From the NCBI GenBank assembly GCA_945901155.1, contig CAMDKO010000021.1, positions 1 through 33,685 on the forward strand: a stretch of 33,685 bases of DNA. The letters run 5' to 3'. The notes beneath the pieces were generated by a model. The model worked only from the letters and a program-made list of their open reading frames with translations. It ran no database searches and was not told the DNA's origin. Of the stretch, positions 1,804 through 22,896 are shown piece by piece (the stretch's first letter is position 1; the number at the start of each line of letters is the position of its first letter). A program made the position numbers and the translations under genes. This DNA comes from Pedobacter schmidteae (GTDB taxonomy: Bacteria > Bacteroidota > Bacteroidia > Sphingobacteriales > Sphingobacteriaceae).

Positions 1804-1835
1804 CAAATATAAGGCTATGAATTGTGAATTACGAA
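1804..1835 (-). promoter_or_regulatory. Bacteroidota-type promoter of pdhB, -33 box inside a heptamer array
   Basis: On the minus strand TATATTTG (1811-1804) fits the TAnnTTTG -7 consensus exactly. Twenty bases upstream is TTCG (1835-1832), a one-mismatch -33 box. The predicted transcript starts near 1799, giving a leader of about 20 bases. The -33 box falls within the tandem array 1819-1888. Confidence 0.5.
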
Positions 1836-1888
1836 GGATTAATTACGAATTACGAAGGATTAATGACGAATTACGAATTACGGAGTAC
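1819..1888. repeat. Left heptamer array, GAATTAC-type, 10 units
   Basis: Ten consecutive 7-mers in perfect register: GAATTGT, GAATTAC, GAAGGAT, TAATTAC, GAATTAC, GAAGGAT, TAATGAC, GAATTAC, GAATTAC, GGAGTAC. A 21-bp higher-order unit (GAATTAC-GAAGGAT-TAATTAC) occurs twice, at 1826-1846 and 1847-1867. The unit is the reverse complement of the GTAATTC unit at 2330-2378, so the two arrays form inverted arms around the four-helix-bundle gene. Confidence 0.9.
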
Positions 1889-1961
1889 TGATACCGTTAA
1901 ATAGATAAAAAAGTATTTTCAAATACGAATCGCGAAATTTCAGAAATGAATAAATAATGGA

Positions 1962-2333
1962 ATGAAAACTGAAAACTTAATACAAACAAAAACATTTGCA
2001 TTTGCAATTCGAATTGTCAATGCAAGCAAATTTTTGAAAAATGAGAAGCGTGAATTTATTCTTTCAACACAAATGCTTAGAAGTGGAACCTCAATAGGAG
2101 CAAATGTTGAAGAAGGAATAGGAGCCCAATCGAAAGCAGATTTTATTTCAAAATTTTCTATAGCATATAAAGAAGCTCGAGAAACATCCTACTGGCTTCG
2201 TTTGCTATACGCTACAGACTATTTATCAAAAGAAATGAGTGATAGTTTAATAAATGATGCGGAAGAACTTTGCAGAATAATTGGAAAAATTCAAATAACC
2301 TCTAAAAGAACCCTAAAGACGCAACAGCCGTAA
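1962..2333 (+). CDS. Four-helix-bundle protein, 23S rRNA intervening-sequence protein (S23) family
   Basis: 123 residues, the normal size. The family core is clear: LRSGTSIGANVEEGIGAQSK at about 42-61, then the DFISKFSIAYKEARETSYWL stretch typical of the second and third helices. First described in 23S rRNA intervening sequences of Leptospira, these proteins are common as stand-alone genes in Bacteroidota and are related to the Avd accessory protein of diversity-generating retroelements. They form pentameric, basic bundles thought to bind nucleic acid; the cellular role is unknown. The gene is alone, its TAA overlaps the first unit of the right heptamer array, and a dyad GTATTT-TC-AAATAC (1913-1926) lies between the left array and the start. 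No reverse transcriptase or rRNA is nearby. Confidence 0.88.
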   Translation: MKTENLIQTKTFAFAIRIVNASKFLKNEKREFILSTQMLRSGTSIGANVEEGIGAQSKADFISKFSIAYKEARETSYWLRLLYATDYLSKEMSDSLINDAEELCRIIGKIQITSKRTLKTQQP

Positions 2334-2378
2334 TTCGTAATCCGTAATTCGTAATTCGTAATTCGTAATTCGTAATTA
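2330..2378. repeat. Right heptamer array, GTAATTC-type, 7 units
   Basis: Seven 7-mers in register: GTAATTC, GTAATCC, four further GTAATTC, then GTAATTA. The array begins one base before the stop codon of the four-helix-bundle gene, which it supplies. It ends five bases before the stop codon of the convergent addB-type gene, so it fills the whole gap. It is the inverse complement of the left arm at 1819-1888. Confidence 0.92.
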
Positions 2379-12184: not shown

Positions 12185-12205
12185 CAAGCTTTTAGCTATC
12201 GAGTC

Positions 12206-12240
12206 ATAATTCGTAATTAATAATTCGTAATTCGTAATTA
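12206..12240. repeat. Heptamer array, GTAATTC-type, 5 units, abutting the nrdJ stop
   Basis: Five 7-mers in register: ATAATTC, GTAATTA, ATAATTC, GTAATTC, GTAATTA. It uses the same unit and orientation as the array at 2330-2378 and ends one base before the nrdJ stop codon. The junction (GTAATTAATCAACTACATCC) closely resembles that at the addB-type stop (GTAATTAACTAACTACCTC). Confidence 0.85.
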
Positions 12241-12241
12241 A

Positions 12242-15200
12242 TCAACTACATCCTCCCTGCGTACCGCAGTTTAAACACTTATAACAAGTACCCGATCTAA
12301 CCATAATATGACCACAATTGCCGCATGCAGGAGCATCAGACTGGCCACCACCCGAAATATCAAGTACTGGCTTTAGCTGTGCACCTGATGAAGAGCTTGG
12401 TACACTCACCGGGCTTTCTACGAATGTGTTGGTAGTATCTGAATTCACATCTTCGTCAGTCATTTGTGGATTACCCAAAATAACTTTCTGCTCCGTTAAA
12501 ACATGAACTAGATCAGTACGGTTCAGGTACTCATATCCAAGCATTCTGAAGATATAATCTACAATTGAGGTAGCGCTTTTGATGTTATCATGACCGCTTA
12601 CCATACCTGATGGTTCAAAACGGGTAAAGGTAAACTTATCGACAAATTCCTCCAATGGCACTCCATACTGAAGGCCAACTGAAACAGCGATAGAGAAACA
12701 GTTCATCAAAGAACGGAAAGTTGCCCCTTCTTTATGCATATCCACAAAGATCTCACCCAATGTTCCATCTTCGTATTGTCCTGTACGAACGAATACTGTT
12801 TGTCCGCCAACTGCCGCTTTCTGCGTGAATCCGCCACGTTTACTAGGCAGGTTTTTACGTTCCACAACAGATGATAACTGACGCTTGAACTTGGTGTCAG
12901 TAGAACGCTCTAGGATTGCTCTTGCAGCCTCCAATACCTGATCAGCAGTAAGATCGCTCAGTTTAACATTAGCGGCTTGGCCTAATACTTCTTCAACAGT
13001 ATCTAGTTTATCTTCCTTACTGTCAGATGATTTGGTAGACAATGGCTGAGATAATTTACTACCGTCACGATAAAGAGCGTTAGCTTTAACGCCAAGTTTC
13101 CATGATAATTCGTAACAATCTTTAATCTCTTCAACGGTAGCTTCATTAGGAAGGTTAACTGTTTTGGAGATCGCACCTGATAAGAACGGCTGTGCTGCAG
13201 CCATCATTTTAATGTGGCCATGAGCATGTATGTAGCGCTCACCCTTTTGTCCGCATTTATTGGCACAATCAAATATATCGTAATGCTCTTCTTTCAAATA
13301 AGGAGCACCTTCAACAGTCATTGTTCCACAGATGTATTCATTTGCTTCAGCAATTTGCTGGCGATTGAAACCTATAGCGCGTAACAGATTGAAATCAGGA
13401 GAGGAATATTGCTCAGCTTTGAATCCTAAACGATTTAAACACTCTTCACCAAGGCTCCACTGATTAAATACGAAACCAATTTCAAAAGCGGCAAGCAATG
13501 ATTTGTCAATTTTTTCTAATTCATCTTGAGTAAATCCTTTGGCAGCAAGACTGTCAAAATTGATGTGTGGCGCAGCATTAAGTGTTGCAGCACCTTTAGC
13601 ATAATTTACTATTGCTTCAATTTCATGCTCTTTATAGCCTTGGTTGCGCAAAGCTCCAGGAACACTTTGATTGATAATTTTGAAGTAACCACCACCTGAA
13701 AGCTTCTTGAATTTAACCAATGCAAAATCTGGCTCGATACCTGTTGTATCGCAATCCATTACTAAACCGATGGTCCCTGTTGGGGCAATTACGGTAGTTT
13801 GAGCATTGCGATATCCATATTTTTCACCTAGTTCTACTGCTTTATCCCATGAATTACATGCAGCTGAAAGTAAATAATCAGGACAGTATTTCGGATCTAT
13901 TCCCGGAGGCGCAATTTCAAGACCTTCGTAGGAATCAGTATTGTATGCAGCATAACGGTGATTACGCATGACACGTAACATGTGCTTTTTATTGTCTTCG
14001 TATTTCTTAAATGTACCTAACTCTTTGGCCATTTCTGCCGAAGTTGAATAAGCAGTACCCGTCAAGATCGCTGTAATAGCACCACCAATTGCGCGGGCTT
14101 TATCACTATCGTAAGGAATACCAGCAACCATTAGCATTGAACCAAGGTTAGCATAGCCTAAACCAAGTGTGCGATAGTCAAATGATAATTGCGCAACCTC
14201 TTTTGAAGGGAACTGCGCCATTAAAACTGAAATCTCTAGAACCACAGTCCAAACACGACAAGCATGCTCAAAGCCTTTCACGTCAAAAATTAATGTTTGA
14301 GGATCGAAGAAATGCGCCAGGTTAATGGAAGCCAGGTTACAAGCAGTATTGTCTAGGAACATGTATTCTGAACAAGGATTTGAGGCATTGATGCGTCCAC
14401 CTTCAGGGCAAGTATGCCACTCGTTGATAGTGGTATCGTACTGCATACCGGGATCAGCACATGCCCAAGTAGCGAAAGAAATGTCCTGCCATAATTTTTC
14501 TGCAGAAATAGACTTAACTGGTTTTCCACTAATACGGCCAATTAAATCCCAGTTTTCACCATTCTCAAGTGCTTTGAAGAATGCGTTTGGTACACGTACA
14601 GAGTTGTTTGAGTTCTGTCCTGAAACAGTGCGATAAGCCTCACCTTCATAATCTGAAGAATATCCTGCAGCAATTAAAGCTGCAACTTTTTTCTCTTCTT
14701 CTACTTTCCAGTTAACAAAACCTTCAATTTCAGGGTGATCAAGATCCAGACATACCATTTTGGCAGCGCGACGTGTAGTACCACCTGATTTGATTGCTCC
14801 TGCAGCGCGGTCACCTATTTTAAGAAATGACATGAGTCCTGATGAGTAGCCACCACCTGAAAGTTTTTCACTTTCTCCACGAATCGATGAGAAATTTGTA
14901 CCCACTCCTGATCCATATTTAAAAATTCTTGCTTCTCTAACCCAAAGGTCCATGATACCACCATCATTCACCAGGTCATCACTTACAGAAAGTATGAAAC
15001 AAGCATGAGGCTGAGGACGTTCATAAGCAGAAGTTGATTTCTCAAGCTGATCTGTATCAGGATTTACAAAATAATGTCCCTGCGGCTTTCCAGTGATACC
15101 ATAAGAACTATGTAAACCGGTATTAAACCATTGTGGTGAATTTGGTGCAGCCAATTGACCTACAATTGTATATACCAGCTCATCATAAAATATAGAAGAG

Positions 15201-21879: not shown

Positions 21880-22755
21880 ATGATTAAATCCATGACAGGC
21901 TATGGTTTGGCTACCAATGATTTTGCCCACGCAAAATATACGGTGGAGATCAAATCATTGAACAGTAAGTTCCTGGAACTTTCTTTAAAAATTCCAAAGG
22001 CATTTTCTGATAAAGAGTTTTTATTAAGAAATGAATGTGCCAGGCAAATTGAACGCGGGAAGGTAAATATCAGTATCAACATTGAATATGCAGAAACTAC
22101 ATTAAAGACCTCCAGCATTAATCAGCCATTACTCAGGCATTATTATGCTCAGCTTAAGGAATCTGCAGATGCCTTAGGCGATACGGGAAGCAACCTGTTT
22201 CAAATGGCACTGAACTTCCCAGAAGTTGTTCAGTATTCGATTGATGAAGTAAGCGAAGACGAATGGAAAACAGTTTATAAAACTTTTGAACAGGCAGTGG
22301 TCAATTTTCAAAATTTTAGGCAGGATGAAGGTGGAGTTTTGAAGCTAGACCTGATTCTGCGAATAACAAACATAATGGAAGGCATGAGGCTAGTTTCAGA
22401 ACAGGAGCCGCTACGTATTCCATCCATAAAAGATCGTTTAAATCAGTTTTTAGAAGATGTCGTTGGAAAAGAGAACATCGATCATAACCGCTTTGAACAG
22501 GAGTTGATCTATTTTATCGATAAGTTGGATATCACTGAAGAAAAAACCCGTTTAAAAAGCCACTGCGATTACTTTATTGCAGCACTTCAGGATAAAGATG
22601 CAAACGGAAAAAAATTAGGATTTATTTCACAGGAGATAGGGCGCGAGATCAATACAATGGGCTCAAAAGCCAATGATGCTAAAATGCAGCAGATTGTTGT
22701 GGGAATGAAAGAAGAACTGGAAAAAATCAAGGAGCAATTATTAAACGTATTGTAA
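21880..22755 (+). CDS. YicC/YloC family endoribonuclease
   Basis: 291 residues, full length. Family landmarks are the N-terminal MIKSMTGYGLATNDF and EIKSLNSKFLELSLKIP, and the C-terminal DUF1732 region (EEKTRLKSHCDYFIAAL, then GRKLGFISQE-type sequence as GKKLGFISQEIGREINTMGS). Family members were shown to act as endoribonucleases on mRNA or small RNA. In Bacteroidota the gene usually precedes gmk, as it does here. Its stop codon is followed with no spare base by a heptamer array. Function in this organism is inferred from the family. Confidence 0.93.
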   Translation: MIKSMTGYGLATNDFAHAKYTVEIKSLNSKFLELSLKIPKAFSDKEFLLRNECARQIERGKVNISINIEYAETTLKTSSINQPLLRHYYAQLKESADALGDTGSNLFQMALNFPEVVQYSIDEVSEDEWKTVYKTFEQAVVNFQNFRQDEGGVLKLDLILRITNIMEGMRLVSEQEPLRIPSIKDRLNQFLEDVVGKENIDHNRFEQELIYFIDKLDITEEKTRLKSHCDYFIAALQDKDANGKKLGFISQEIGREINTMGSKANDAKMQQIVVGMKEELEKIKEQLLNVL

Positions 22756-22797
22756 GGTTGTAAGTTATAGGTTGTAGGTTATAGGTTATAGGTAAAC
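22756..22797. repeat. Heptamer array, GGTTATA-type, starting at the yicC stop
   Basis: Six 7-mers in register: GGTTGTA, AGTTATA, GGTTGTA, GGTTATA, GGTTATA, GGTAAAC. The first base follows the yicC TAA directly. Its reverse complement (TATAACC) resembles the units of the array at 22819-22888, so the pair can fold into an imperfect hairpin. Confidence 0.85.
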
Positions 22798-22811
22798 TAA
22801 ACTTAGTATTT

Positions 22812-22888
22812 AAAACTTATTACTTATTACTTATAACTTATTACCTATTACTTATTACTTATAACTTATTACCTATTACTTATTACTC
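22812..22888. repeat. Heptamer array, ATTACTT-type with 28-bp higher-order unit
   Basis: Ten clear 7-mers from 22819, after one leading AAAACTT at 22812: ATTACTT, ATTACTT, ATAACTT, ATTACCT, then the same four again, then ATTACTT and ATTACTC. The 28-bp block is therefore present two and a half times, showing expansion in steps of four units. The array ends eight bases before the gmk GTG, replacing any normal ribosome-binding region. Confidence 0.92.
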
Positions 22889-22896
22889 AAAATCTA

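Follow-up and report, generated by a model that had tools for sequence, protein, structure and literature searches.

The window analysed here, the whole 33,685-nucleotide stretch of a Pedobacter schmidteae contig, belongs to a 2.74-Mb draft genome of 191 contigs (G000) and carries a cassette of about 560 bp (1819..2378). This consists of a left arm of ten 7-bp units of GAATTAC type (1819..1888), a plus-strand gene for a four-helix-bundle protein of 123 aa (1962..2333) and a right arm of seven 7-bp units of GTAATTC type (2330..2378), no strand being assigned to the arms or to the cassette as a whole. The exact word is present in four of the ten left and five of the seven right units. As a preliminary description of this DNA had stated, the two arms are inverse complements and the right arm supplies the stop codon of the gene (TAA, 2331-2333), which lies within its first unit. 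The encoded protein scores above the curated cut-offs of PF05635 (98 bits; cut-off 33.8) and TIGR02436 (107 bits; cut-off 24), which confirms that a member of the S23 family, the 23S-rRNA-intervening-sequence proteins (IVP), is encoded between inverse-complementary 7-bp arrays. Tandem Repeats Finder scored the left arm at 97 (21-bp unit) and 51 (7-bp unit) and the right arm at 91; the left arm is the less regular of the two, falling below the lag-7 threshold that the right arm reaches. The same scan, covering periods 4 to 12, returned regions at period 7 only. The arms are paired in the predicted RNA fold of 1815-2385 (z-score -5.55; none of 100 shuffles was equally stable), in line with the earlier suggestion that they are able to pair in RNA. 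A dyad ahead of the gene, GTATTT-TC-AAATAC at 1913-1926, had been noted as well: it is present in the window but disrupted in all four orthologues compared, and we rejected it as a part of the cassette. The gene is antisense to both neighbours, which we labelled PdhB-like (transketolase domains) and AddB-like (PD-(D/E)XK domain).

The IVP protein is under purifying selection, the ratio of nonsynonymous to synonymous substitution rates being 0.06-0.10 among three orthologues of the window protein. Across 210 IVP proteins the polar residues Q37, R40, N48, E51 and E74 are near-invariant, and a profile built from 11 of these proteins matches the solved structures 2rld (7e-37) and 2gsc (8e-27), which are relatives at the level of sequence. 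A Xanthomonas relative is described as a homopentameric ring (PMC4990558). In Pfam, PF05635 was the sole match of the window protein at E-values up to 5. Six PF05635 genes are present in the window genome. By eye, repeats flank five of them on both sides, each with a word of its own, and the right flank of the sixth (contig C65) is 54 bp long, after which the contig ends. The gene on C55 is interrupted by an internal stop. The flanking units of the gene on C122 (locus L010) are of 8 bp rather than 7 bp, and downstream of it stands an open reading frame (ORF) that we take to be transaldolase-like.

Heptamer arrays are enriched at S23 genes, a check that the preliminary description had proposed. 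The set comprised 97 of 110 IVP matches from relatives (the others had incomplete 200-bp flanks or duplicated a locus already included), with the window gene merged with its near-identical orthologue in genome G002. The 60 source regions were hand-picked from a longer list and weighted towards the same genus, and 579 other ORFs from the same loci served as controls. When the left flank was aligned to the reverse-complemented right flank (the inverted score, with a threshold of 28), 67 of the 97 IVP genes reached the threshold, compared with 6 of the 579 control ORFs; the direct orientation gave 8/97, and shuffling the partners across loci gave 80/1923. The counts were 79/97 and 37/579 at a score of 24, and 24/97 and 4/579 at a score of 40. 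Period-7 arrays lay within 200 bp on both sides of 16/97 IVP genes and 2/579 controls, and on either side of 51/97 and 65/579, while flank arrays of other periods were near zero. The 7-nt period of the arms is strict: over 118 arm pairs, identity was 0.68, 0.66, 0.66 and 0.56 at lags 7, 14, 21 and 28, and 0.21-0.32 at every remaining lag (maximum 30). In these pairs the left arm is poor in C (7.7%). Loci L250-L279 entered only the arm-lag analysis, the neighbour-strand analysis and the arm-protein pair analysis. In a genome this rich in arrays (46 in 409 kb), an ordinary gene could come to lie by chance beside repeats made common by replication slippage; given the 67/97 against 6/579 and 80/1923, the arm-protein covariation and the empty sites free of arrays (both below), we rejected chance adjacency and regard it as extremely improbable.

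The heptamer differs between IVP subfamilies and, as far as the sequences compared allow us to judge, tends to track the protein. Such a link had been suggested by an initial set of 99 IVP genes from 40 genomes. The main test covered 229 loci and 23,022 pairs without homologous neighbours in the sequence compared (up to 3 kb per side), a match being one between the left arm of one locus and the right arm of the other. Matches were found in 233 of the 17,243 pairs below 45% protein identity, rose to 2.5% (45-50), 9.8% (50-55), 20.2% (55-60), 26.5% (60-65) and 52.8% (65-75), and were present in all 35 pairs at 75% identity or more; the opposite-strand control gave 0.5-1.4% below 50% identity but rose to 18% and 34% in the two highest bins. 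For all pairs together the rank correlation was 0.15, a value reached by none of 300 permutations. In a prospective test of one subfamily, 52 of 80 loci had inverted arms and 9 direct ones; shuffled partners reached 325/1577, because the word is common to the subfamily. By title nearly all of these loci are from Bacteroidota (one, labelled Bifidobacterium, is probably a mis-binned metagenome-assembled genome), and their arms are mostly GTT-N4 by eye, including the word TAACTGA. A second prospective test addressed window-protein relatives from other host families, using 23 of 29 loci (five had no ATG ORF as called and one a short flank). Inverted arms were found at 19 of the 23, and the window word at 12 (in two cases on the opposite strand, either additionally or in its place), compared with none of 96 flanks from other subfamilies. 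Neither addB nor pdhB was a neighbour at any of the 29 loci. Since arms and gene recur together and the word covaries with the protein where neighbours are not shared, arms and gene would form one unit that reaches new places.

Comparison of the same junctions among relatives adds to this picture. By eye, the nuoF|nuoG junction holds an intact cassette in the window genome, an apparently frameshifted one in G004 and short remnants in G007, G008 and G011, and is free of it in G001, G002, G003, G006, G010, G012, G014 and G015 (G005 and G013 were uninformative, and NuoG had no match in G009). Empty sites, which the preliminary description had advised looking for in close relatives, therefore exist, among them that of G002, whose NuoG stretch is 99% identical to that of the window genome. 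The empty sites carry no arrays, which argues that the arms arrive with the cassette. No target-site duplication was evident by eye at this junction. The site of the window cassette, addB|pdhB, was compared at 18 AddB loci (L120-L137). The IVP gene is intact in G000, G002, G017 and G019, contains a stop in G009 and is truncated by the contig end in G010; none was detected in G016, G001, G004, G012, G014, G007, G008 and G011, and the loci of G006 and G021 have no PdhB. In G016 a piece of the outer left arm is still visible by eye, so that the cassette was probably lost by deletion. The remnants in G003 and G018 (L132, L133) are oriented opposite to the intact copies, and the cassette there appears to have been inverted or inserted twice. 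These two loci would also fit an invertible cassette, in which the inverted arms recombine, flip the gene and so switch its expression; however, both inverted copies are remnants and the arms are imperfect, and we consider this explanation very improbable. At the same junction G007, G011 and G008 (L127, L128, L129) have instead a gene for a Y1-type transposase, similar to the REP-associated tyrosine transposases (RAYT; REP, repetitive extragenic palindromic), together with REP-like palindromes, the Y1-type assignment by Pfam applying to the G007 protein only. Two kinds of element seem to share this junction.

Scattered arrays of the corresponding heptamer are usually present in genomes with a given IVP subfamily; both these gene-less arrays, found genome-wide, and the specificity of the arm word for the protein subfamily go beyond the preliminary description. 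The pattern ACTTATW, searched in 26 genomes, gave at least four hits in 10 of the 11 genomes with a matching IVP gene (58% identity or more) and in 1 of the 15 without (within the genus, 10/11 vs 1/5, p 0.013); G039 had a single hit and the reversed-pattern control one hit in total. For ATCTCA, at least 32 hits were found in 8/8 genomes with an IVP match of at least 63% and in 2/18 others (rank test p 2e-4), with both thresholds chosen after inspection of the data; the reversed pattern gave up to 5 hits in some genomes. The stricter statement that arrays are found only in genomes with IVP genes was not upheld, G015 having no IVP gene and 8 ATCTCA hits. A census of 409 kb of the window genome (the window and 20 other stretches, some chosen for their IVP genes) returned 46 arrays at lag 7, 3 at lag 8, 1 at lag 4 and none at lags 5, 6 and 9-13; the 36 at lag 14 are explained as a harmonic of lag 7. 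Long ORFs cover 16% of the array bases compared with 87% of all bases. Forty-two arrays do not lie beside an IVP gene, and 7 of them have an inverted partner within 200 bp (two pairs being counted from both sides), compared with 2 of 230 random intervals; we rejected the idea that all gene-less arrays are hairpins on this count.

Two gene-less arrays lie in the window itself. The one at 12201..12242 (no strand assigned) has the window word GTAATTC and is a candidate dispersed copy; exact triple GAATTAC units occur at two further sites in the window genome, C3 and C5. The other, at 22753-22892 between a YicC-like ORF and gmk, is an inverted pair of period-7 arrays of AAGTTAT type about 31 bp apart; in relatives (L349-L364) this pair is kept, missing or replaced, by eye with a TAACTGA-type array in G007. 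Dispersed heptamers could serve host regulation, with the IVP as the regulator that binds them and no mobility involved. That arrays of a word track the matching IVP gene and lie mostly outside long ORFs would suit such a role, but close relatives differ in the arrays they have at a given site, and different words occupy yicC|gmk by eye, which makes it improbable.

A function in the host's own RNA metabolism is another alternative. The arm stem might act in operon mRNA as a processing or regulatory module, used by RNase III or the IVP for stability or expression and spread by ordinary horizontal transfer. The stable predicted RNA fold is compatible with this, as are the 173 of 203 IVP genes on the same strand as both neighbours and the insertions between nuoF and nuoG, cas6 and cas4, and cas10 and cmr3. 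Nonetheless, the strand bias exceeds that of ordinary ORFs only slightly, if at all: the TT:FF strand ratio, TT being the co-directional class, is 173:19 for IVP genes, 79:22 for control ORFs below 200 aa (p 0.0075) and 212:32 for those up to 400 aa (p 0.37). Co-directional insertion is therefore weak as proof of action on RNA, and we discarded it as such. Moreover, both neighbours of the window copy lie on the opposite strand, and close relatives have no cassette or broken copies. Altogether, a host RNA module seems unlikely to us.

The insertions next to cas genes come from plasmids. Thirty plasmid records, mostly cyanobacterial, encode a relative, and 13 of these records were examined. Nine of these loci, eight cyanobacterial and one from Riemerella (Bacteroidota), have an inverted score of at least 28. 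The Nostoc edaphicum plasmid has an IVP gene with inverted flanks between nrdB and nrdA, where it is antisense; those of Anabaena 90 and Pseudanabaena have such a gene between cas6 and cas4, and that of Picosynechococcus between cas10 and cmr3. At the Pseudanabaena locus the direct match scores higher (125) than the inverted one (50). The cas6|cas4 and cas10|cmr3 copies (L281, L286, L288) are located within CRISPR operons.

We favour, with a probability of roughly 0.6, a compact selfish cassette made of a left heptamer arm, an IVP gene and a right heptamer arm. The very small mobile element envisaged in the preliminary description is the best-supported reading: the cassette recurs at unrelated loci and its arms covary with the protein, and from these patterns we infer movement. 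Several observations weigh against it. Neither a movement event nor an excised form or a target-site duplication was observed, and no known transposase or nuclease domain was found in the window protein (Pfam, E-values up to 5). Inverse-complementary arms at score 28 are missing from 30/97 IVP genes and from 4/13 plasmid loci (Calothrix PCC 7716, Scytonema, Trichormus, Aulosira), and 35/42 gene-less arrays have no inverted partner within 200 bp. The rank correlation of 0.15 is modest, its arm-protein pairs being non-independent. The ACTTATW test has two exceptions, G006 (matching IVP, no hits) and the window genome (no match, 73 hits), the latter likely because the draft breaks at that IVP element: in the alignment to G002, the window contig stops at its right end about 55 bp before the ACTTATW-matching IVP gene. 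ATCTCA abounds in G002 and G041, which have no IVP match of 63% or more, and its thresholds were set post hoc. As the genomes in these tests are related, they establish association only. No arrays were found in 140 kb sampled from the IVP-rich genomes G003, G012 and G018, nor in 260 kb of five genomes in which PF05635 had no match, so that this sampling is uninformative on whether arrays depend on IVP genes.

How could such a cassette spread? The IVP ring may bind arrays of its cognate heptamer, as hairpins or as single strands; in the simplest model, the ring would recognise the 7-nt units of its word in one of these forms. Once bound, the arms could be copied to, or inserted at, other places, either together with the gene or alone, with the help of host replication, repair or RNA functions, by analogy with RAYT proteins, which are thought to spread REPINs (REP doublets forming hairpins). 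In a transcript the arms could form a long stem, cuttable by RNase III as in the rRNA intervening sequences (IVS), and such cutting might soften the cost of residing between operon genes.

Our best reading by analogy is that the cassette resembles RAYT/REPIN systems in its working and rRNA IVS in its build, and would be a member of neither. The 23S rRNA IVS of Coxiella and Leptospira that contain an S23 ORF have been termed selfish, a mobile origin having been proposed earlier, and they share with the cassette the protein family and an ORF between pairing terminal inverted repeats (a 28-bp stem in Coxiella; PMC4990558). In contrast, the window cassette lies outside 23S rRNA, between PdhB-like and AddB-like protein genes, and window-type arms consist of 7-nt units in tandem, the word of which varies with the protein and gene-less arrays of which are dispersed. 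RAYT/REPIN systems likewise have a gene beside cognate inverted repeats, dispersed gene-less copies and several families per genome (PMC3116915). However, the window protein belongs to PF05635, with no Y1 (HUH) transposase match, and IVP repeats are 7-nt arrays instead of REP palindromes, the gene-less ones mostly single and unpaired. Avd of diversity-generating retroelements resembles PF05635 (PMC10053308), whereas the window protein matches PF05635 alone in Pfam. Intergenic direct-repeat arrays of the heptamer TAACTGA, here the word of one IVP subfamily, have been described from Beggiatoaceae, Cyanobacteria and Bacteroidetes, with translational regulation or rearrangement as proposed roles; the terms helix bundle, S23 and IVP do not occur in that paper (PMC4679880). 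Among the papers listed from the open-licence literature, none joins heptamer arrays with the PF05635 family, although earlier work may exist. Cyanobacterial genomes contain heptanucleotide short tandemly repeated repetitive (STRR) sequences, which are 7-nt tandem repeats; by extension from the plasmid loci these may be linked to IVP genes.

We regard the cassette as a form of the S23-encoding selfish intervening element, and there is a fair chance that it merits a separate class. More tentatively, and at somewhat less than even odds, PF05635/S23 proteins might be the sequence-specific partners and spreading machinery of heptamer repeats in Bacteroidota and Cyanobacteria: a four-helix-bundle ring would read 7-nt units, each branch with its own word and the rRNA IVS as a special branch, together forming an unrecognised class of minimal selfish elements. 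This would connect two orphans, the widespread S23/IVP proteins without known function and the heptanucleotide arrays of unknown origin. The pairing of protein and word offers a natural variant set for deriving a recognition code, with the words of other branches as negative controls. Should the IVP drive the spread, the cassette would be a selfish element that lacks any known transposase; should the IVP act on RNA, the cassette would be an mRNA-processing module located in central operons (nuo, nrd and cas, for example), between their genes.

Some minor observations complete the survey. Two unannotated gut phage contigs (L293, L294) encode relatives of the window protein with 44% and 40% identity; no arms were evident by eye at either locus. 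The window contig ends (33685) about 55 bp short of where G002 has an IVP gene of MQNY type beside an argD-like gene, and the draft probably breaks there at a second IVP cassette. In RAYT/REPIN systems the gene is present once per family in a genome; among same-genome IVP pairs, 0/120 exceed 65% identity, but G387 (L425, C1 15887-16715) has two neighbouring IVP copies, whose identities to the window protein are 79% and 77% and which could represent a recent duplication.
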